Origin: Palleronia marisminoris
GTDB taxonomy: Bacteria; Pseudomonadota; Alphaproteobacteria; Rhodobacterales; Rhodobacteraceae
Direction: 5' to 3'
Length of the DNA: 64,000 nucleotides
Assembly: GCF_900172315.1 (NCBI RefSeq)
Contig: NZ_FWFV01000009.1
Coordinates: 62,001-126,000, forward strand
How positions within the stretch are numbered: position 1 is the first letter of the stretch; each line of letters starts with the position of its first letter. Below, piece after piece: positions 6,345-55,931 of this stretch. A program made the position numbers and the translations under genes. The notes under the pieces were generated by a model, which did no database searches, was not told the DNA's origin, and worked only from the letters and a program-made list of their open reading frames with translations.

Positions 6345-6428
6345 GCCCGCGTGGCGGAATGGTAGACGCAGGGGATTCAAAATCCCCCGCCGCAAGGCTT
6401 GCCGGTTCGAGTCCGGCCGCGGGTACCA
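6345..6428 (+). tRNA. tRNA-Leu (anticodon CAA)
   Basis: A full cloverleaf can be folded. Acceptor arms are GCCCGCG (6345-6351) and CGCGGGT (6418-6424), with A73 and an encoded CCA to 6428. The anticodon stem is GGGGA/TCCCC around loop TTCAAAA (anticodon CAA). A long variable arm, typical of Leu, and the T-loop GGTTCGAGTCC follow. It reads UUG codons and lies alone on the plus strand between two leftward genes. Confidence 0.95.
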
Positions 6429-26459: not shown

Positions 26460-26488
26460 GGCCGCCGGTGATCCCGGCGGCCCTTTTT
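26460..26488 (+). terminator. Rho-independent terminator after the DUF6456 gene
   Basis: GGCCGCCGG (26460-26468) and CCGGCGGCC (26474-26482) make a perfect 9-bp stem with loop TGATC, followed by CTTTTT. It ends the transcript that begins in the DUF6456 promoter and separates it from the histidine kinase gene. Confidence 0.9.
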
Positions 26489-35868: not shown

Positions 35869-36495
35869 CTAGCTGCCGATCACCTCGTCCAGCACCCGGT
35901 CCCACAGCTCTGGCGGTTGCGCGCCGGGCACGGCATGCCGCTCGCCTACGATGAACGTCGGCACGGCGGTGACACCTCGTTCGCGCGCATGGGAATCGCG
36001 CGCGGCCACCTCGTCGCGATCCGCGCCCGCCGCCAGCAGGCGCGCGACCAGGTCCCGGTCCATCTCGATCCGCCCGGCGATCTCGACAAGCACCTCGGGC
36101 GCGCCGATATCCTCGCCGCGCTTGAAATAGGCGTCGAACAACGCCGAGACGGCGGCGGTCTGCCGCCCCTCCAGCCCCGCCCAGTGGATCAGGCAATGCG
36201 CCGACAGGGTATTCGGCACGCGGGTCATCTTGTCCCACGCGATTTCCACGCCTGCCGCTTCCGCGGCTTCGAGCACGGGGGCATAGGCCGCCAGCGCGCC
36301 GTCCCGCCCGCCGAACTTCGCCTCGAGGTATGTCTGCCGGTCGATCCCTTCGGCTGGCATGTCGTAGTTCAGCTGGAAGGGGTGCCATTCGATCACGAAG
36401 GGGTGGTCCGGCCGGCGAGACAGCGCGCGGTCGAGGTTAGCCTTGCCGATATAGCACCAGGGGCAGATCGGGTCGGAGAGGATGTCGAGTTTCAT
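35869..36495 (-). CDS. DsbA-family (FrnE-like) oxidoreductase
   Basis: A 208-aa thioredoxin-fold protein with an inserted helical domain. The active site CPWC lies at about residues 11-14 (SDPICPWCYIGK), and the cis-proline loop is GVTAVPTFIVGE. No signal peptide, so it is cytoplasmic, like FrnE/polyketide-type thiol oxidoreductases linked to oxidative stress. CGAGGAGGCACC precedes the ATG. It is transcribed leftward, with the CsbD-like stress gene upstream of it on the same strand. Confidence 0.92.
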   Translation of the reverse strand: MKLDILSDPICPWCYIGKANLDRALSRRPDHPFVIEWHPFQLNYDMPAEGIDRQTYLEAKFGGRDGALAAYAPVLEAAEAAGVEIAWDKMTRVPNTLSAHCLIHWAGLEGRQTAAVSALFDAYFKRGEDIGAPEVLVEIAGRIEMDRDLVARLLAAGADRDEVAARDSHARERGVTAVPTFIVGERHAVPGAQPPELWDRVLDEVIGS

Positions 36496-36572
36496 GGTGC
36501 CTCCTCGCGCTGATGGCGTGCGGCCGCTTTTACCCGGCCAAGGCTGCGTCGCAAGCTTGATCCGGACGCAGA

Positions 36573-36603
36573 GAAGGCGCGAACCCTTCCGGGCCGCGCC
36601 TTC
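36573..36603. terminator. Bidirectional-looking 9-bp stem-loop between CsbD-like and DsbA-family genes
   Basis: GAAGGCGCG (36573-36581) pairs perfectly with CGCGCCTTC (36595-36603) around a 13-nt loop. It lies 28 bp after the stop of the leftward CsbD-like gene and about 78 bp before the next leftward gene. No T-run follows on either strand. It probably marks a transcript end, though the absence of U residues leaves this open. Confidence 0.45.
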
Positions 36604-36630
36604 GCCGTCGGTCAGAATGACGCCCTGGCG

Positions 36631-36984
36631 TCAGGAGGACGGCTTGCGGCCCACGGGGTGGTCCGCCTCGATGTCGTCGCCGAAATTCCTGTCATCGGCA
36701 TAAACGTCTTCGCCCACGCCGATATGTGCGGCCGAGGCGCGGATGTTCTCGCCGTCACGGGTCTCGTCCATCGCCACGTCGGCCGGGACGGCACCCTGTT
36801 CCCACTCCTTGACCTGGCGTTCGGCTTCTGCGGCGGAGAGGGTCTGGCGCTCGGCCACGTAGCTCACCAGCGCGGCGCGATCCCCTTCGAGCCCCAGAAG
36901 ATCGTTCTCTTCGGTCTCGGGGAAACGCTGCATCAGCGCTTCGGTGAAGGCGGGCCAGTTTCTCTGGATGGCGGTCCACTGCAT
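36631..36984 (-). CDS. CsbD-like stress protein
   Basis: A 117-aa acidic protein. Residues 1-65 follow the CsbD pattern: MQWTAIQRNWPAFTEAL, an acidic segment, a Leu-Gly-Glu-Gly-Asp region and AERQVKEWEQG. CsbD proteins are abundant general-stress proteins of unknown mechanism. The C-terminal 45 residues (ending ADHPVGRKPSS) are acidic and probably disordered, an extension the short CsbD proteins lack. CGAGGAGGACACCG precedes the ATG, a strong ribosome site. Confidence 0.78.
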   Translation of the reverse strand: MQWTAIQRNWPAFTEALMQRFPETEENDLLGLEGDRAALVSYVAERQTLSAAEAERQVKEWEQGAVPADVAMDETRDGENIRASAAHIGVGEDVYADDRNFGDDIEADHPVGRKPSS

Positions 36985-37042
36985 CGGTGTCCTCCTCGTG
37001 TGCTTTCTCAGGCCAATGCGGGCCGCGCGGGGCGGTTCCGCC

Positions 37043-37207
37043 TCAGGGAAGGTCGTGGCGATCGCGGGTGACGATCATCACGGCGCTGCCGGCCGCATGC
37101 ATCGTCGCGCCCGCCGCCGTGCCGGCCACCTTGACCGGCACCTTCGCGATCGAACATCCGCCAAGAGCCAGCAGGGCGCAGGCCAGCGCGATCTCAGCCT
37201 TCCTCAT
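37043..37207 (-). CDS. Small lipoprotein (54 aa)
   Basis: A short exported lipoprotein: MRKAEIALACALLALGGCS gives a signal with lipobox LGGC, Cys at 18. The mature 37 residues carry PVKVAGTAAGATMHAAG, like a class of tiny alphaproteobacterial lipoproteins I recall as the NF038104 family. Function unknown. Its start overlaps the end of the upstream solute-binding protein gene by 14 bp, so it is probably translated from the same mRNA. Confidence 0.75.
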   Translation of the reverse strand: MRKAEIALACALLALGGCSIAKVPVKVAGTAAGATMHAAGSAVMIVTRDRHDLP

Positions 37208-39026
37208 ACCACCACACTTCCGGCAGGAAGCCGAGCCAGTCGCCATAGATCGGCAGCGTCTCGGGGTAGTGCAGGTTGGAGTCGTGGGCCACGTGCGAGA
37301 CCGGGTTGTACCACACCGGCACAACGTAGCGCCCGGTCGTCAGCACCCGGTCCAGCGCCTTGACCGCCGCCACGTAATCCTCGCGGCTTTCCGAGGTCAG
37401 CATCTCGTTGATCAGCCCGTCGATGGCGTCCGACTTCACGCCCATCCAGTTCGAGCTGCCCTCCTGGTCGGCCGCGTCCTTGCCCCAATAGAGGTATTGC
37501 TCGTTGCCGGGGCTCAGGCTCATGCCGCGGGTGTACCACGCCATGTCGAAGTCGAAGGCGTTCGTCCGCTCGGTGAACTGGGCCTGGTCGACCAGCGTGA
37601 TCGTGGGCGAGATGCCCAGCCGATCGAGCGCCGCGACGTAAAGATCCGCCGTCCGCTGCGCCACCTGGGGCTCGTAGCCGCCCTGGCTGAGCAGGATCTC
37701 GATCTCGAACGGCTCGCCCGCCTCGTTGCGCAGGGCGCCGCCGTCGCCGATGGTCCAGCCGGCCTCTTGCAGAAGCCCAAGCGCCGCGCGGGTGTTGGCG
37801 CGGTTCCGCTCGGAGCCGTCGCTTTCGGGCAGCGAATACCCCTCCATCGCGCCGGGAAGCAGGTCGTCCTCGTACTTCGCCAGCAGTTCGGCCACGCGCC
37901 CTTCGGCGGGGCCGTGATCCATGCCGAGCTGCGAATTCGAGAAGTAGGACTCGATTCGGGGCAGGGTGCTGCCGTTCAGGACCTGGTTCACGAACTCGAA
38001 GTTGAACGCCTGGATCAGCGCCTCGCGCACGCGCCAGTCGTCGAAGGGCGCCTCGCGGGTGTTCATCACGAAGCCGGTGATCCCCGAGGGGCGCTCGTGC
38101 GGGATGTCGGACTTGACCACCTCGCCGGACTCGATGCGCGGGAAGGCGTATTGAGTCTCCCACCGCTGCGCGTCCGTCTCGCGGTTGATCGACAGGGCGC
38201 CGGACTTGAACGCCTCGAACATCACGGCCTGGTCGCCGTAGAACTCCATCCGGATCTCGTCGAGGTTCGCTTGCCCGGCCATGAACGGCAGGTCGTTGCC
38301 CCAATAATCGGGATCGCGCGCCAGGGTGACGTAGCGGCCGGGTTCATAGTCAGAAATCACGTAGGGCGCGGTCGTGATCGGGATGGTTTCGAGGCTCGAA
38401 TCGGCGAAATCCTTGCCTTCCCACTGGGCCTTCTTCAGGATCGGCCGCATCCCCATGATGAGCGCGAGTTCACGATCGTTCTCGTTGAATTCGAACCGCA
38501 CCGTCCGGTCGTTCACGGCCCGGGCATCGGCGACCTTCAACCACGCGCCGCGGTAGCGGGGGTTCCCCTCGGTCCCGAGGGTCTCGTAGCTCCACAGAAC
38601 GTCCTCGACCGTGACCGGCGTGCCATCCGAGAACTTGGCCTCGGGGCGCAGGGTGAACTCCACCCAGCTGCCATCATCGGCGACGTCGATCGATTCAGCC
38701 AGAAGTCCGTACAGGGTGAACGGCTCGTCATATGACCGACCCATCAGCGATTCGTAGGCGAGCGAGCGCAGCTGCCAAGGCGGATTGCCCTTCAGGATCA
38801 TGGGGTTGAGAGAGTCGTATGATCCAACTTCGCCGGTCACGAGCCGCCCGCCCTTGGGTGCGTCCGGGTTTGCATAGGGAAGGTGCGCATAGTCCGGCGG
38901 CAGGGCGGGTTCGCCGAACATGGCGACACCGTGTTGCGGCTCGGCCACGGCAGCGCTCCCGAGCAGGGCGGCGCCGACGGCGGCAAGACGACAGATTTGA
39001 CGGGCGGAACGGACGATCGATCTCAT
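37194..39026 (-). CDS. ABC transporter periplasmic oligopeptide-binding protein (YejA-like)
   Basis: A 610-aa solute-binding protein (SBP family 5) with a Sec signal peptide (MRSIVRSARQICRLAAVGAA and a cut near AVA-EP). The N-terminal HGVAMFGEPALPPDYAHLPY and YDSLNPMILKG are typical of YejA, the binding protein for peptides such as microcin C-type compounds. Long length also fits YejA. The permease and ATPase genes (yejBEF) are not next to it, so it is an orphan here or its partners lie elsewhere. Transcription starts in the same intergenic region as the candidate sRNA. Confidence 0.9.
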   Translation of the reverse strand: MRSIVRSARQICRLAAVGAALLGSAAVAEPQHGVAMFGEPALPPDYAHLPYANPDAPKGGRLVTGEVGSYDSLNPMILKGNPPWQLRSLAYESLMGRSYDEPFTLYGLLAESIDVADDGSWVEFTLRPEAKFSDGTPVTVEDVLWSYETLGTEGNPRYRGAWLKVADARAVNDRTVRFEFNENDRELALIMGMRPILKKAQWEGKDFADSSLETIPITTAPYVISDYEPGRYVTLARDPDYWGNDLPFMAGQANLDEIRMEFYGDQAVMFEAFKSGALSINRETDAQRWETQYAFPRIESGEVVKSDIPHERPSGITGFVMNTREAPFDDWRVREALIQAFNFEFVNQVLNGSTLPRIESYFSNSQLGMDHGPAEGRVAELLAKYEDDLLPGAMEGYSLPESDGSERNRANTRAALGLLQEAGWTIGDGGALRNEAGEPFEIEILLSQGGYEPQVAQRTADLYVAALDRLGISPTITLVDQAQFTERTNAFDFDMAWYTRGMSLSPGNEQYLYWGKDAADQEGSSNWMGVKSDAIDGLINEMLTSESREDYVAAVKALDRVLTTGRYVVPVWYNPVSHVAHDSNLHYPETLPIYGDWLGFLPEVWWYEEG

Positions 39027-39101
39027 ATCGGGTGGGACTCCAGACGGTGCGGATCGAGGATCAACTTATGGGAGTAACTCCCCGAGATATAGCTTTTCCT
39101 T

Positions 39102-39129
39102 TTGCCTTCCCGGGGAATCGGCGTATATA
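39102..39129 (+). promoter_or_regulatory. Sigma-70-type promoter for the candidate sRNA
   Basis: TTGCCT (39102-39107) and TATATA (39124-39129) are separated by 16 bp, a good housekeeping promoter. A start near 39136 is expected. No rightward reading frame begins before the terminator at 39183-39211, so it must drive a short non-coding transcript, unless readthrough reaches bdhA at 39344. Confidence 0.6.
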
Positions 39130-39135
39130 GGGGGC

Positions 39136-39211
39136 ACTGCTCGATAGGTTTCTTGCCTGTATGAAACCTGCCTCAATGACTTAACGCCCGCCTCGTGCGG
39201 GCGTTTTTTTT
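39136..39211 (+). ncRNA. Candidate small RNA, about 76 nt
   Basis: The stretch holds a complete transcription unit without a coding frame: promoter at 39102-39129, a perfect 7-bp hairpin AGGTTTC (39146-39152) / GAAACCT (39163-39169) with a 10-nt loop TTGCCTGTAT, a short linker, and an intrinsic terminator. The 317-bp space between the divergent solute-binding protein gene and bdhA (39027-39343) has no other gene. The name, family and targets are unknown; I do not recognise it. Boundaries are inferred from the promoter and terminator. Confidence 0.6.
39183..39211 (+). terminator. Rho-independent terminator of the candidate sRNA
   Basis: AACGCCCGC (39183-39191) and GCGGGCGTT (39197-39205) form a 9-bp stem with loop CTCGT, followed by a run of eight T residues (39204-39211), the strongest intrinsic terminator in the window. 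It faces rightward although no rightward gene lies upstream within its intergenic region. Confidence 0.92.
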
Positions 39212-39343
39212 GGGCCCGCGGAACAGGTCACCCGCATCGGCGATCCGGGCCGGACGCTCAACCCCGTTTTGCGATGGATCACGCCGGTGTGAGAGCTATC
39301 TGCGCCGTGAAACCGCGGCCGTTCCGCGCGAAGGGAGTGCATC

Positions 39344-40117
39344 ATGGATCTCAAGGGCAAGACCGCCATCGTCACCGGCTCGAACTCGGGAATCGGGCTT
39401 GGCGTGGTGCGCGAACTTGCGCGCGCCGGTGCCGACGTCGTGCTGAACTCGTTCACCGACCGCGACGAGGATCACGACCTCGCCCGCGCGATCGGGGACG
39501 AGTTCGGCGTGACCGCGCGCTACATCCGCGCTGACCTGTCGAAGGGGGACGAGGCTCGCAAGCTGATCGAGGATTCCGGGCGCTGCGACATCCTGATGAA
39601 CAACGCCGGCATCCAGCACGTCGCCGGCATCGAGGATTTCCCGACCGAAAGATGGGACGCGATCATCGCCATCATGCTGTCCTCGGCCTTCCACACGGCA
39701 GCCGTGGCGGTCCCGATGATGCGCGAGCAGGGCTGGGGCCGGATCATCAACCTTGCCTCGGCGCACGGGCTGCGCGCCTCCCCCTACAAGTCCGCATATG
39801 TCGCGGCCAAGCACGGGGTGGTGGGCCTGACCAAGGTGATCGCGCTGGAAACCGCGCAGGACCCGATCACCGCCAACGCGATCTGCCCCGGCTACGTGAT
39901 GACGCCGCTGGTCGAGGACCAGATCCCCGACACCATGAAGAAATACGACATGGACCGCGAGACGGCGATCAAGGAGGTCATCCTCGAACGCCAGCCCTCG
40001 AAGGATTTCGCGACCGTCGAACAGATCGGCGGGGTCGCGACCTTCCTGTGCTCGGCCGCGGCGGCGCAGATCACCGGCACGACGATTTCGGTCGATGGAG
40101 GCTGGACCGCGCGGTAG
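39344..40117 (+). CDS. bdhA: 3-hydroxybutyrate dehydrogenase
   Basis: Short-chain dehydrogenase interconverting D-3-hydroxybutyrate and acetoacetate with NAD; used when poly-3-hydroxybutyrate is broken down. The 257-aa protein has the NAD motif VTGSNSGIGLG, the NNAG block, catalytic Ser/Tyr/Lys in LASAHGLRAS and YVAAKHGVVG, and the HBDH-typical insert KYDMDRETAIKEVILERQPS. GAAGGGAGTGCATC precedes the ATG. It is followed after 39 bp by a patatin-like gene and links to the phasin at 14.3 kb in PHB metabolism. Confidence 0.95.
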   Translation: MDLKGKTAIVTGSNSGIGLGVVRELARAGADVVLNSFTDRDEDHDLARAIGDEFGVTARYIRADLSKGDEARKLIEDSGRCDILMNNAGIQHVAGIEDFPTERWDAIIAIMLSSAFHTAAVAVPMMREQGWGRIINLASAHGLRASPYKSAYVAAKHGVVGLTKVIALETAQDPITANAICPGYVMTPLVEDQIPDTMKKYDMDRETAIKEVILERQPSKDFATVEQIGGVATFLCSAAAAQITGTTISVDGGWTAR

Positions 40118-40156
40118 GGCGCGGCGCCTGGCGGCGACACCAAGGAAGGCGAACGG

Positions 40157-41179
40157 ATGCCCGACGTGAAGCGGATCAACATCGCGCTGCAAGGTGGCGG
40201 TGCCCACGGGGCGTTCACCTGGGGTGTGCTCGACCGGATCCTGGAAAGCGACCGGGTCGAGATCGCGGCGATCTCGGGGACATCGGCCGGTGCGTTGAAC
40301 GGGGCGGCGCTGAAGGCGGGGCTTGCGCGGGGCGGACCGGACGCTGCGCGCGAGACGCTCGGCTGGCTTTGGGCGCGAATCCTCAGGGTCAGGGACCTGA
40401 AGCTCGCCACCTGGCTGTCACCGATGGCGCCGGCGACCGGCGCGATCTCGCGCGCGATCGAGTATTCGACGCTCTACACGGTGGGGGACATCCTCGGGCA
40501 GGCGACCTCTCCCTATGCGCTGGGGCCGTTCTACCGCAATCCGCTGGCCCCCATCGTCTCGGACATGCGCTTCGAAGACATCTGTTCCCCGGCGGGTCCC
40601 GAGCTTCACGTTTGCGCCACGAATGTCCGCACCGGCAAGATCCGGGTCTTCTCGGGGGCCGAGCTGAGCCCTTCGGCGCTTCTGGCCTCGTCCTGCCTTC
40701 CCTCTATGTTCCAGGCGGTCGAGATCGACGGCGAGGCCTATTGGGACGGCGGCTATACCGGGAATCCCGCGCTCTTTCCCCTTTATGACCCCGCGCTGCC
40801 GGGCGACGTGGTGATCGTGAACATCAACCCGCTGCTGCGCGACGACCTGCCCTATACCGCCCAAGAAATCCACAACCGGATCAACGAGATCTCCTTCAAC
40901 AGCTCGCTCCTGCGCGACCTGCGGGCCATCCGGTTCGTGCAACGTCTGCTCGAAGAGGGGACGATGCCCGAGGGCGCGATGAAATACGTCTTCGTGCACA
41001 TGATCGCGGATGACGAGCTCATGCGGGACCTGTCGGTCGCGACGAAGATGATCCCTTCGGCCGTTCTGGCCGACCGCCTGTTCCGCGCCGGCCGCTTGGC
41101 CGCCGAGCGATTCCTCGACGCGCATCTCGAGGATCTGGGCCACCGCTCGACCGTCGACCTGGCCGAGATGTACGACTGA
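40157..41179 (+). CDS. Patatin-like phospholipase
   Basis: A 340-aa alpha-beta hydrolase-like Ser-Asp dyad enzyme. The oxyanion loop GGGAHGAF is at about residues 13-20, the nucleophile motif GTSAGALN near 45, and the catalytic DGG in YWDGGYTGNPALFP near 197. Patatin proteins cleave phospholipids or other acyl esters; a close tie to bdhA suggests a role in PHB granule or lipid turnover, which is inference from the gene order. AAGGAAGGCGAACGG precedes the ATG. Confidence 0.92.
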   Translation: MPDVKRINIALQGGGAHGAFTWGVLDRILESDRVEIAAISGTSAGALNGAALKAGLARGGPDAARETLGWLWARILRVRDLKLATWLSPMAPATGAISRAIEYSTLYTVGDILGQATSPYALGPFYRNPLAPIVSDMRFEDICSPAGPELHVCATNVRTGKIRVFSGAELSPSALLASSCLPSMFQAVEIDGEAYWDGGYTGNPALFPLYDPALPGDVVIVNINPLLRDDLPYTAQEIHNRINEISFNSSLLRDLRAIRFVQRLLEEGTMPEGAMKYVFVHMIADDELMRDLSVATKMIPSAVLADRLFRAGRLAAERFLDAHLEDLGHRSTVDLAEMYD

Positions 41180-41257
41180 CGCGGCCCCGGGCAACTTGGC
41201 ATTCGCCGCCGGAGCCTTTACCTGAACGGATCGCGCAGGAAGAAGCCCAGGCCACCG

Positions 41258-42259
41258 ATGACGGAACGACCCGCAGATCTCGACACCGCCGCTCGCCTGT
41301 CCGTCGCCCCGATGATGGACTGGACGGACCGGCATTGCCGCGTGTTCCACCGCAAGATGTCGCGCCATGCGCTACTCTATACCGAGATGATCACCGCCCC
41401 CGCGCTGGTCCGGGGCGGGGCCCGGCACCTGATTGCCTTCGACGACAGCGAGCACCCGGTCGCCCTGCAACTGGGCGGCTCCGACCCGCGCGAGCTGGCC
41501 GAGGCCGCCAAGATCGGGGCCGAGGAGGGCTACGACCAGATCGACCTGAACTGCGGCTGCCCGTCCGACCGCGTCCAGTCCGGCACGTTCGGCGCGGTGC
41601 TCATGCGCCACTCCGACCTCGTTGCCGACTGTGCGGCCGAGATGATCCACGCCCAAGGGCGCGAGGTCACCGTGAAATGCCGCATCGGGGTGGACGAGCA
41701 AGAGCCCGAGGCCGTCTTGCCCGACTTCCTGCAGAAGATCTCTGCCGCGGGCGTCCGGCGCGTGACGATCCACGCCCGCAAGGCCTGGCTCCAGGGCCTC
41801 AGCCCGAAGGAGAATCGCGACGTCCCGCCGCTCGACTACCCGCTCGTCCACCGGATGAAGGCGGCGTTCCCCGATCTCCACATCTCGATAAACGGGGGGA
41901 TCGACAGCCTCGACGCGGCGTCCGCGCATCTGGATGCGCTCGACGGTGTGATGATCGGACGCGCCGCCTACCAGCGCCCCGCCGATATCCTGCTCGACGC
42001 CGACCGCCGCATCTTCGGCGACGACGCGCCGCGCCCCACGGCCGAGGATGTCGCACTTGAGATGATCCCCTACGCCGAGGCGCACATCGTCACCGGCGGT
42101 CGCCTGCACCAGGTCACGCGCCACATGCTGGGCCTCTTCACGGGCCGCCCCGGCGCGCGGCACTGGCGGCGCATCCTGTCCGAAGGCGCGAACCGCCCCG
42201 GCGCCGACGGTCGCCTCGTCGAAGAGGCGCTGTCGGCCGTCACGCGCGAGGTTGCCTGA
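41258..42259 (+). CDS. dusA: tRNA-dihydrouridine synthase A
   Basis: FMN enzyme that reduces uridines 20/20a in the tRNA D-loop. The 333-aa protein shows the barrel start LSVAPMMDWTDRHCRVF, the catalytic Cys in LNCGCPSDRVQSGTFGA, HARKAWLQGLSPKENR and NGGIDS with FMN contacts. Those DusA-specific motifs distinguish it from DusB/C. It is transcribed alone, its stop 4 bp from the convergent DUF1289 gene. Confidence 0.96.
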   Translation: MTERPADLDTAARLSVAPMMDWTDRHCRVFHRKMSRHALLYTEMITAPALVRGGARHLIAFDDSEHPVALQLGGSDPRELAEAAKIGAEEGYDQIDLNCGCPSDRVQSGTFGAVLMRHSDLVADCAAEMIHAQGREVTVKCRIGVDEQEPEAVLPDFLQKISAAGVRRVTIHARKAWLQGLSPKENRDVPPLDYPLVHRMKAAFPDLHISINGGIDSLDAASAHLDALDGVMIGRAAYQRPADILLDADRRIFGDDAPRPTAEDVALEMIPYAEAHIVTGGRLHQVTRHMLGLFTGRPGARHWRRILSEGANRPGADGRLVEEALSAVTREVA

Positions 42260-42263
42260 CCCG

Positions 42264-42491
42264 CTACTCCCGCGTCCGCGCCCGCCCACCCCGACGGCGG
42301 GCGATCAGGCCCTGACGGCTCGGCAGTTCGGCCAGCACCTCGCGCCGCTCGTCGTCGGACATCATGCTCCAGCCCGAGATCTCGTTGATCGAGCGCAGGC
42401 AACCGGTGCACAGCCGGGACTGAGGATGGATCACGCAGACCTTGATGCACGGGCTCTGAACCTCGTCGCGTTTCCAGACGTCGTCGCTCAT
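42264..42491 (-). CDS. DUF1289 domain-containing protein
   Basis: A 75-aa protein with a compact four-cysteine knuckle, CIKVC then CTGC, typical of DUF1289, followed by GWSMMSDDERREVL and an Arg-rich tail RRRGGRARTRE. Cysteine spacing suggests a metal site (Fe-S or zinc). Function unknown. Its start overlaps the ruvX stop by 4 bp, so it is the last gene of ccmI-ruvX-DUF1289. Confidence 0.9.
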   Translation of the reverse strand: MSDDVWKRDEVQSPCIKVCVIHPQSRLCTGCLRSINEISGWSMMSDDERREVLAELPSRQGLIARRRGGRARTRE

Positions 42492-42955
42492 CCGATCCTC
42501 GTCAGCCTGTCCAATGCACCCTGCAGGATGTAGGCGGCCGCGACCTGGTCCACCACCTCGGCCCGGCGGGCGCGGCTGGTATCGGCTTCGAGCAGCGCAC
42601 GCTCGGCCGCCACCGTCGACAGCCGCTCGTCCCAGAAGCCGATCGGCAGGTCCAGCAGCCGCGACAGGTTGCGGGCGAAGGCGCGGGTGGATTGAGCGCG
42701 CGGCCCCTCGCTGCCGTCCATGTTGCGCGGCAGGCCCATGACAATGCCGCCGATCTCGCGGCCCTCGGCAATCTCGACAAGCCGCCCGGCATCCTGCGTG
42801 AACTTCTTGCGGCGCACCGTCTCGATCCCGCTCGCCACGGACCGCATCCGGTCCGACACCGCCACCCCGATCGTCTTGGTGCCGAAATCGAGTCCCATCA
42901 GCGCGCGCATGGGCGGCAGGTCGGCGGCGAACTCTTCCATCCGGTCATGGATCAT
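42488..42955 (-). CDS. ruvX: Holliday junction resolvase-like protein RuvX (YqgF)
   Basis: RNase-H-fold nuclease, with roles in junction resolution and 16S rRNA 5'-end maturation. The 155-aa protein has MGLDFGTKTIGVAVSD with the first catalytic Asp, then DERLSTVAAERAL and the C-terminal DQVAAAYILQ, completing the acidic triad. A shorter start at MEEFAADL is possible. It is coupled by ATGA overlaps to ccmI upstream and to the DUF1289 gene downstream. Confidence 0.94.
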   Translation of the reverse strand: MIHDRMEEFAADLPPMRALMGLDFGTKTIGVAVSDRMRSVASGIETVRRKKFTQDAGRLVEIAEGREIGGIVMGLPRNMDGSEGPRAQSTRAFARNLSRLLDLPIGFWDERLSTVAAERALLEADTSRARRAEVVDQVAAAYILQGALDRLTRIG

Positions 42956-44169
42956 CGCGCGACACCCGCCTGCGCGGCGGCCTCCTCGATCAGGGCAAGG
43001 TCGGCGGGCTGGTTGCCGAACACCTGCTGCGCCTCGCCATAGATGGCCGCCGCGCGCTCGGTGTCGCCCATCACCCCCAGCGCCGAGATCAGCCGCGCCC
43101 AGTCCGGCGCCGGCCCGCCCTCGGTGGCAAGGCGCTCGGTGAGGCGCGCGACCATGCCCACGATCATCTCCTGCCGCGCCTCGGGGGACATCTCGGCCGC
43201 GGCGGCCATGTCCTCGGCCGTAGGGCCGGGCGCCACGGACGGAGCCTGGTAGTCGATTCCGGCGCGCGCGGCGACCTCGCCAATCTGGGCGCGGGCCGCC
43301 GAGACCCAGGCCGCGTCGGCCGGGGCAGTCTCGAGCAGCGGGCGCCAGATGGCGAAGGCGCGGTCCGGGCGGCCGGTCTGCAGGTAGCTCAGCCCCTTGA
43401 AATAGAGCGCGCGGGTGTCACTCCGGTCGATTGCGAGGGCGGCATCGAACTGTGCCTCGGCCTCGGGCGAGACGTAGCCACCGGCGTTCATCACCATCAA
43501 CTCTCCCAGGAAGGCGTGGGTCTCGGCGGTGGTCTCCTCGCCCAGAAGCGCCACGAGCCGTTCCTGTGCGTCGCGGGCCGCGGCGAAATTGCCCAGCCGC
43601 GCCTCGTTCACGGCCAGAAGCCGCAGGCCTTGCGGATCGTCGGGCCGGTCTTGCATGGTGCTGCGCAGACGGTCGATCAGCAACGCGAATTCGGGAGCAG
43701 GCTCCACGGGGTCGGGCAGGGCGCCGATCTCTTGCGCGCGCGCCTCGGCGTCGGCCTGGCTCAAGCGCTCGGCCCGGGCGGCGTCGGCATCGGCCAGCCG
43801 AGCGCGCAGCGGCAGGTCGGGATAGCCCGGCGCGCCCTGGTTCCAGTAGATCGCTACCCCACCCACCATAACTGCCAGCGCGACGAGGCCCGCGGCCACG
43901 AGCCGCACTTTGCGGGGTGCCTGGTGGGCCTGGCGCACGCCGCGACGGTCCGCCTCAAGCAGGCGGCGCGCGACTTCGGCGCGCGTGCGCTCGGCCTCGT
44001 CTCCGGTCAGGACACCGCGTGCCAGGTCCCGATCGATCTCGGCCAGCTGGTCGCGGTAGATCGCCATGTCCTGCGCCGGTTCGCGCGACCCGTCCGATCG
44101 GAACAGCGCCGCCAGGACGGGCAGGGTGCCCAGGGCGGCGATCAGCACGGCGGCGATCCAGAACAGCAT
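42952..44169 (-). CDS. ccmI: Cytochrome c biogenesis protein CcmI
   Basis: Membrane chaperone that delivers apocytochrome c to the haem ligation machinery. The 405-aa protein opens with a helix MLFWIAAVLIAALGTLPVLA, then a cytoplasmic coil (YRDQLAEIDRDLARGVLT) and a second helix VRLVAAGLVALAVMVGGVAI at about 100-120; a periplasmic TPR region follows, the two-part CcmI layout. GGAAGGACCGAA sets the ATG at 44169. It is divergent from soxB. Other ccm genes are not in the window. Confidence 0.92.
   Translation of the reverse strand: MLFWIAAVLIAALGTLPVLAALFRSDGSREPAQDMAIYRDQLAEIDRDLARGVLTGDEAERTRAEVARRLLEADRRGVRQAHQAPRKVRLVAAGLVALAVMVGGVAIYWNQGAPGYPDLPLRARLADADAARAERLSQADAEARAQEIGALPDPVEPAPEFALLIDRLRSTMQDRPDDPQGLRLLAVNEARLGNFAAARDAQERLVALLGEETTAETHAFLGELMVMNAGGYVSPEAEAQFDAALAIDRSDTRALYFKGLSYLQTGRPDRAFAIWRPLLETAPADAAWVSAARAQIGEVAARAGIDYQAPSVAPGPTAEDMAAAAEMSPEARQEMIVGMVARLTERLATEGGPAPDWARLISALGVMGDTERAAAIYGEAQQVFGNQPADLALIEEAAAQAGVAR

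Positions 44170-55854: not shown

Positions 55855-55931
<77 letters not shown>

Follow-up and report, generated by a model that had tools for sequence, protein, structure and literature searches.

A small RNA gene of Palleronia marisminoris, lying between a gene for a solute-binding protein and bdhA, is near-universal in Rhodobacteraceae and carries a loop complementary to a site in the mraZ/dcw leader. The targeted leader would be the long 5′ leader that is released in Rhodobacter sphaeroides as the abundant small RNA UpsM. We consider it probable, from the sequences, that the RNA pairs with this leader and acts on it through its loop seed and its 5′ tail. Throughout, the window is the whole 64,000-nt stretch of DNA that was analysed.

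The small RNA gene and its promoter

We have very high confidence that the RNA gene is real. Its predicted parts and its neighbours in the window are the following.

39102-39129, plus strand: promoter, with TTGCCT (39102-39107), a 16-nt spacer and TATATA (39124-39129)
39136-39211, plus strand: small RNA of about 72-76 nt, with putative start A39136 and putative end at 39207-39211
39137-39143, plus strand: unpaired 5′ patch CTGCTCG, the complement of CGAGCAG in the dcw leader, 3′ of the first site
39146-39169, plus strand: hairpin with a 7-bp stem AGGTTTC/GAAACCT (39146-39152 / 39163-39169) and a 10-nt loop
39154-39170, plus strand: candidate pairing segment TGCCTGTATGAAACCTG with the seed GCCTGTA (39155-39161), complementary to the mraZ/dcw leader (UpsM)
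39183-39211, plus strand: intrinsic terminator, a 9-bp stem (39183-39205) and a U tail
37194-39026, minus strand: SBP_bac_5 (family 5 solute-binding protein), divergent neighbour
39344-40117, plus strand: bdhA, 3-hydroxybutyrate dehydrogenase (TIGR01963 above cut-off), downstream neighbour

The original prediction described a promoter, a 7-bp hairpin with a 10-nt loop and a terminator following one another rightward, and these coordinates were confirmed in the sequence. Its statement that no rightward gene lies upstream of the terminator was borne out as well, as no substantial one is found there and the neighbour at 37194-39026 is on the minus strand. Judged by sequence and conservation, the element has what is expected of a trans-acting sRNA, namely its own promoter and intrinsic terminator and no co-directional gene upstream.

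The 7-bp stem is closed by an extra U-G pair, and the fold of the RNA beats 200 of 200 shuffles (z -4.2). The terminator ends in eight Ts (39204-39211), two of which fall within the 9-bp stem. It had been called the strongest terminator in the window; this holds for the tail, as it is the only one of the four 9-pair terminators with a run of eight Ts, but not for the stem, whose length is tied with those at 26460, 50206 and 60051, all three of which have more G-C pairs. The U tail is compatible with Hfq binding. A small ORF in the window's RNA (ATG AAA CCT GCC TCA ATG ACT TAA, MKPASMT) was rejected: its stop is lost in several relatives and the RNA core is nearly unvarying at every codon position.

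An E. coli-type promoter scan of positions 36001-43000 found none where 0.6 were expected, and the promoter alone is not significant. It is convincing because it is conserved among relatives. A pattern of TTG-N(18-21)-TA close before the core fits 144 of 149 loci (5 did not fit), with the consensus CAAACTTTTAGCTTGGAC-N17-TATAAA-N5-CACTG; most of the loci behind this count and behind the neighbour counts given below come from an exact-pattern scan, a bias of which the 36 loci found by similarity are free. The spacer measures 16 nt in the window and 17 nt in 119 of the 144 aligned loci. The missing T at -7 is reported to be usual in alphaproteobacterial sigma-70 promoters (PMC8407463). Since the promoters of RpoHI and RpoHII likewise carry TTG and TAT elements (PMC10673084, PMC3441632), the promoter may belong to either kind of sigma factor; the TTGG-N17-TATAAA promoter of this RNA does not conserve two further bases reported for RpoH promoters, a C at -14 and a T at -9. 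Directly 5′ of the -35 element lies an A/T-rich box, CAAACTTTTAG, with a per-base conservation of 66-92% over 144 loci and weak in the window. It could be a UP element or a regulator site.

Conservation in Rhodobacteraceae

A 116-nt DNA query matched in 36/36 genomes of the window's family with E 3e-15 or better; in 24 genomes from other families of Alphaproteobacteria its best match had E 0.015. In a larger draw of family genomes at least 90% complete, the RNA was found in 391 of 395 (348/351 genera) at E<=1e-6. Across 143 genomes of the class, a covariance model scored above 100 bits in two from this family, one of them the window's own; in seven genomes outside the family it scored 23-30 bits. 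Within one genus, g48, the RNA is present in 124 of 125 genomes; we take g48 to be Paracoccus because its members are closest to the named P. aminovorans locus. The named loci among the matches listed are from Ruegeria, Leisingera, Paracoccus, Roseobacter, Cereibacter, Jannaschia, Rhodovulum and Neomegalonema.

Of the 42 nt of the core, 40-42 are unchanged in each of the 36 loci that the similarity search found, and 25 of these loci have exactly the window's core. Eleven core variants occur in a larger set of 153 loci among the matches listed, a number that understates the variation, as 117 of these loci were chosen by an exact pattern fixing 37 of 40 core positions. Three chance matches (L031-L033) were left out, together with L106 (22/42), a match at a locus edge.

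Three pairs of the terminator are altered on both sides and still paired, in 6, 8 and 3 of the 36 sequences. The hairpin showed no covariation in the 36 loci, as it is nearly unvarying. Of the structure that an alignment across the family was expected to reveal, the conserved hairpin and the covarying terminator were thus found, but not a covarying hairpin. The stand-alone transcript of about 76 nt in the original prediction is strongly supported by the conserved promoter and core and by the compensatory changes in the terminator, and we infer that the gene is transcribed.

Four of the 395 family genomes have no match to the RNA (G159, G178, G385 and G432), and G385 still matches the gene of the solute-binding protein. 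One genome, G341, is listed with two matches, the sole such case among the 395.

Comparison with known RNAs

An Rfam search of the whole window agreed with the RNA being unannotated: no family passed the threshold at its locus, and only two tRNAs passed elsewhere. The tRNA genes of the window are at 6345-6425 and 55855-55928. The best plus-strand matches below threshold at the RNA locus include Hrs13 (RF02631, 26.9 bits against a gathering score of 52), BjrC1505 (RF02356, 25.4 against 50) and mmgR/suhB (RF00519, 23.4 against 41), the last an sRNA family of like size. An RNA this conserved in a much-studied marine and phototrophic family has yet no Rfam match over threshold.

As far as the open-licence literature was searched, the RNA is undescribed. 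Six short stretches of it or of its complement were absent from the relevant papers in that literature, and no published RSs name for it was found there, RSs1386 included; its interpolated gene index in R. sphaeroides is near 1367. Two Paracoccus denitrificans sRNAs, Intergenic 60 and 134, are reported with a size and conservation like those of this RNA (PMC5107571). None of their coordinates coincides with the RNA matches in the 125 g48 genomes.

Complementarity to the mraZ/dcw leader

Short antisense matches of the query coincide with the positions of mraZ. The complement of the loop seed GCCTGTA is present in 27 of 27 mraZ leaders of a first set, taken as fixed 550-nt regions, compared with a mean of 0.43 and a maximum of 3 for 100 dinucleotide shuffles; this set includes the genomes where the match was first noticed. 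Among the 7-mers of the 27 regions, this complement, TACAGGC, is shared most widely. A second set of 30 genomes from other genera was picked before their leaders were looked at, and here the complement occurs in 28 of 30, while 629 other 7-mers of the same composition occur in 0.87 leaders on average and in 19 at most. The leader counts are not independent, as the genomes are related by descent, and they exclude G030 (contig edge) and G003 and G024 (no MraZ match).

One leader of the second set, L223, has a perfect 17-nt site. In the two misses, G064 and G085, the site is altered and still recognisable (CATCAGGC in L227 and CATCGGGC in L249, respectively) and the RNA is unchanged, which makes these two leaders natural test cases for the predicted pairing. 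In G005 and G028, which have variants of the RNA, the leader matches the variant incompletely. No covariation between the RNA and the leader was found, since the RNA hardly varies.

For a 22-nt segment, the calculated duplex energy is better than with any of 50 shuffled leaders in 26 of the 27 genomes; in the remaining genome it is better than with 49 of them. The median is -31.2 kcal/mol and the median z -5.3. The match is also specific in the two genomes searched. When the window's genome is compared with the 17-nt segment allowing 2 mismatches, only the RNA gene itself and the mraZ leader match, the leader with one mismatch (A opposite C); four other sites have 3 mismatches each. The same holds for genome G086, where the leader again has 1 mismatch and three other sites have 3. 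The reversed control pattern gave one 3-mismatch site per genome in both. The RNA combines a conserved seed with a conserved complementary site in a predicted trans target, as expected of a trans-acting sRNA, and it probably pairs with the dcw leader in a conserved manner. If it is true, the pairing may account for TACAGGC being kept in an otherwise variable stretch of the leader.

A second patch, CGAGCAG, is complementary to the 5′ tail of the RNA and lies 3′ of the first site in 21 of 28 leaders. It was found in 20 of the 27 leaders of the first set (shuffles: mean 2.1, maximum 7) and, at a distance of 40-75 nt, in 25 of the 30 leaders of the second set. This patch is weaker evidence because it is inside a leader block conserved as a whole. 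The dcw leader has in this block, GAGCAGACATCCCCCCAGGTGG, its second stretch of strong conservation, which lies in a predicted hairpin and is conserved beyond the 7 nt that match the RNA. In an unconstrained co-fold of the window's RNA with its own leader both sites are predicted to be used (RNA nt 2-8 and 18-36), with a gain of about 20 kcal/mol.

Neighbouring genes

The RNA is linked to its neighbours. Of 154 loci, 141 have the gene of the solute-binding protein upstream in divergent orientation and 118 have bdhA downstream within the locus, in a few cases at 1-2 kb; some of the 36 loci without bdhA are misses at locus ends. The original prediction had proposed from the neighbours alone that the RNA regulates the nutrient response, and this linkage would suit such a role, or a direct regulation of the adjoining peptide-uptake and PHB-use genes. 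However, the best 7-mer complement of the RNA is not widespread at either neighbour's 5′ region (it occurs in 34 of 142 loci at bdhA and in 15 of 148 at the gene of the solute-binding protein), and a shared intergenic region can account for the linkage. We regard a role in the nutrient response as very unlikely. Compared with 27/27 and 28/30 leaders, these counts make the dcw leader and not the neighbours the best functional lead.

The RNA and bdhA are on the same strand, with 132 nt between the T run and the start of bdhA, and the element could in principle be an attenuator or leader of bdhA and not an sRNA. Its terminator is strong, though, its conservation resides in the RNA, and bdhA was not found downstream in the 36 loci mentioned above, some of which are truncated, so that this explanation is hardly credible.

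The predicted pairing site within UpsM of R. sphaeroides

Genome G086 is, as we assume, Rhodobacter sphaeroides 2.4.1, and we take its contig C4 to be chromosome 1. The RNase E cut in UpsM was mapped at 694,720 (PMC6238624), a position which falls within the leader found here and supports this identity. UpsM is a 206-nt leader-derived RNA that starts 268 nt 5′ of mraZ (PMC5089854). It is not a homolog of the RNA described here but its predicted partner: with this start, the leader site in G086 corresponds to UpsM nt 55-71, which match the loop and a stem arm of the RNA. The mapped RNase E cut is 14 nt beyond the 3′ end of the site, at nt 85. The published 130-nt fragment implies a cut nearer nt 76; we used the mapped position.

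The structure model places the site within the R1 loop, in a small hairpin that leaves nt 62-66 unpaired; opening the site would cost about 5.5 kcal/mol. The co-fold of the two G086 RNAs has a predicted gain of about 11 kcal/mol. In it RNA nt 19-36 pair with UpsM nt 54-71, and RNA nt 37-43 pair with UpsM nt 1-9, which form part of the R1 stem. The CGAGCAG patch is unused in this co-fold, and four bases of the 5′ tail pair elsewhere. A competing match of 11 pairs, one of them a wobble, lies near the UpsM terminator of R. sphaeroides.

These observations are consistent with the following mechanism. The loop GCCUGUA, lengthened by the 3′ stem arm to about 17 nt, would pair with the leader site, and the 5′ tail CUGCUCG would contact a second site that lies about 50-70 nt 3′ of the first, the two contacts being collinear and antiparallel. 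The leader segment between the two sites would be looped out, and in R. sphaeroides it would contain the mapped RNase E cut. We infer that such a duplex forms in cells. It would then determine how the leader is cleaved, how stable it is or how far it is read through, possibly with Hfq or RNase E taking part, and may in this way raise or lower the supply of division and cell-wall proteins. If the pairing is true, cell division would be under RNA control at a point that is common to the family and open to testing.

The pairing might also be real and work in reverse, with UpsM as a sponge that titrates the RNA away from its main targets among other mRNAs. UpsM is reported to be the most abundant sRNA of R. 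sphaeroides, with about 60% of the Hfq-bound sRNAs (PMC5089854), and the near-invariant core of the RNA suggests several, and thus further, targets. On the other hand, a search of two genomes with the full 17-nt segment yielded no further site at 2 mismatches or fewer. We consider titration by UpsM rather unlikely, and action on the leader remains our preferred reading.

Relation to StsR

A known sRNA already shares this partner. StsR (RSs0827) is a 72-nt, RpoHI/HII-dependent RNA that binds UpsM and also acts on rpoE (PMC8307010), and both its Hfq binding and its pairing with UpsM and the dcw leader have been reported (PMC8307010, PMC8625941). On the rpoE mRNA the pairing of StsR is described to begin 10 nt after the start codon. 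In the literature searched, control of the dcw leader by UpsM and StsR was found described for R. sphaeroides only. From its UpsM match we initially identified our RNA with StsR, and the like size and the shared partner would fit an ortholog; the promoter, with TTG and TAT elements that RpoHI/RpoHII promoters have too, does not speak against one. We doubted this identity after mapping the coordinates. If the RSs numbers follow gene order, interpolation on chromosome 1 of strain 2.4.1 between RSs0682 (UpsM, 694.6 kb) and RSs1624 (1,724.5 kb) places RSs0827 near 853 kb, whereas the RNA is at 1,444 kb in G086. The CCTCCTCCC repeats are presumably the mark of CcsR (RSs0680a-d), and as they adjoin UpsM they support a numbering by gene order.

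A better candidate is found close to the expected position:

L218:18041-18138 (G086:C4 about 858,041-858,138): probable StsR gene, with an RpoH-like CCCATGTT box and an eight-T terminator

It contains TTCACTGTCCC, an 11-nt complement of UpsM nt 13-23, the 5′ strand of the stem adjoining the cut region. By position and features, and not by comparison with the published StsR sequence, this 858-kb gene probably encodes StsR. On the same grounds, map position and the 858-kb candidate, the RNA described here is unlikely to be an StsR ortholog and is probably a second partner of UpsM and the dcw leader. The two would differ in their sites, as the likely StsR matches the 5′ strand of the R1 stem and our RNA a site inside the R1 loop. 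A TIGR02451 profile search of G086 gave no match, and rpoE was dropped as a candidate target of our RNA.

We tentatively raise the possibility that a near-universal, near-invariant sRNA of Rhodobacteraceae clamps the dcw leader at two points and forms with the stress-induced StsR a pair that reads the R1 loop and the R1 stem, possibly under different growth conditions, the two jointly setting the output of the division genes. When UpsM nt 8-23 are held open in the structure model, the R1 stem is broken; nt 72-74 become unpaired, nt 81-83 do so in part, and nt 75-80 pair elsewhere. In outline, the 858-kb RNA would fit the published mechanism of StsR (PMC8307010). Holding the first site of our RNA alone unpaired left the predicted state of the cut region unchanged.
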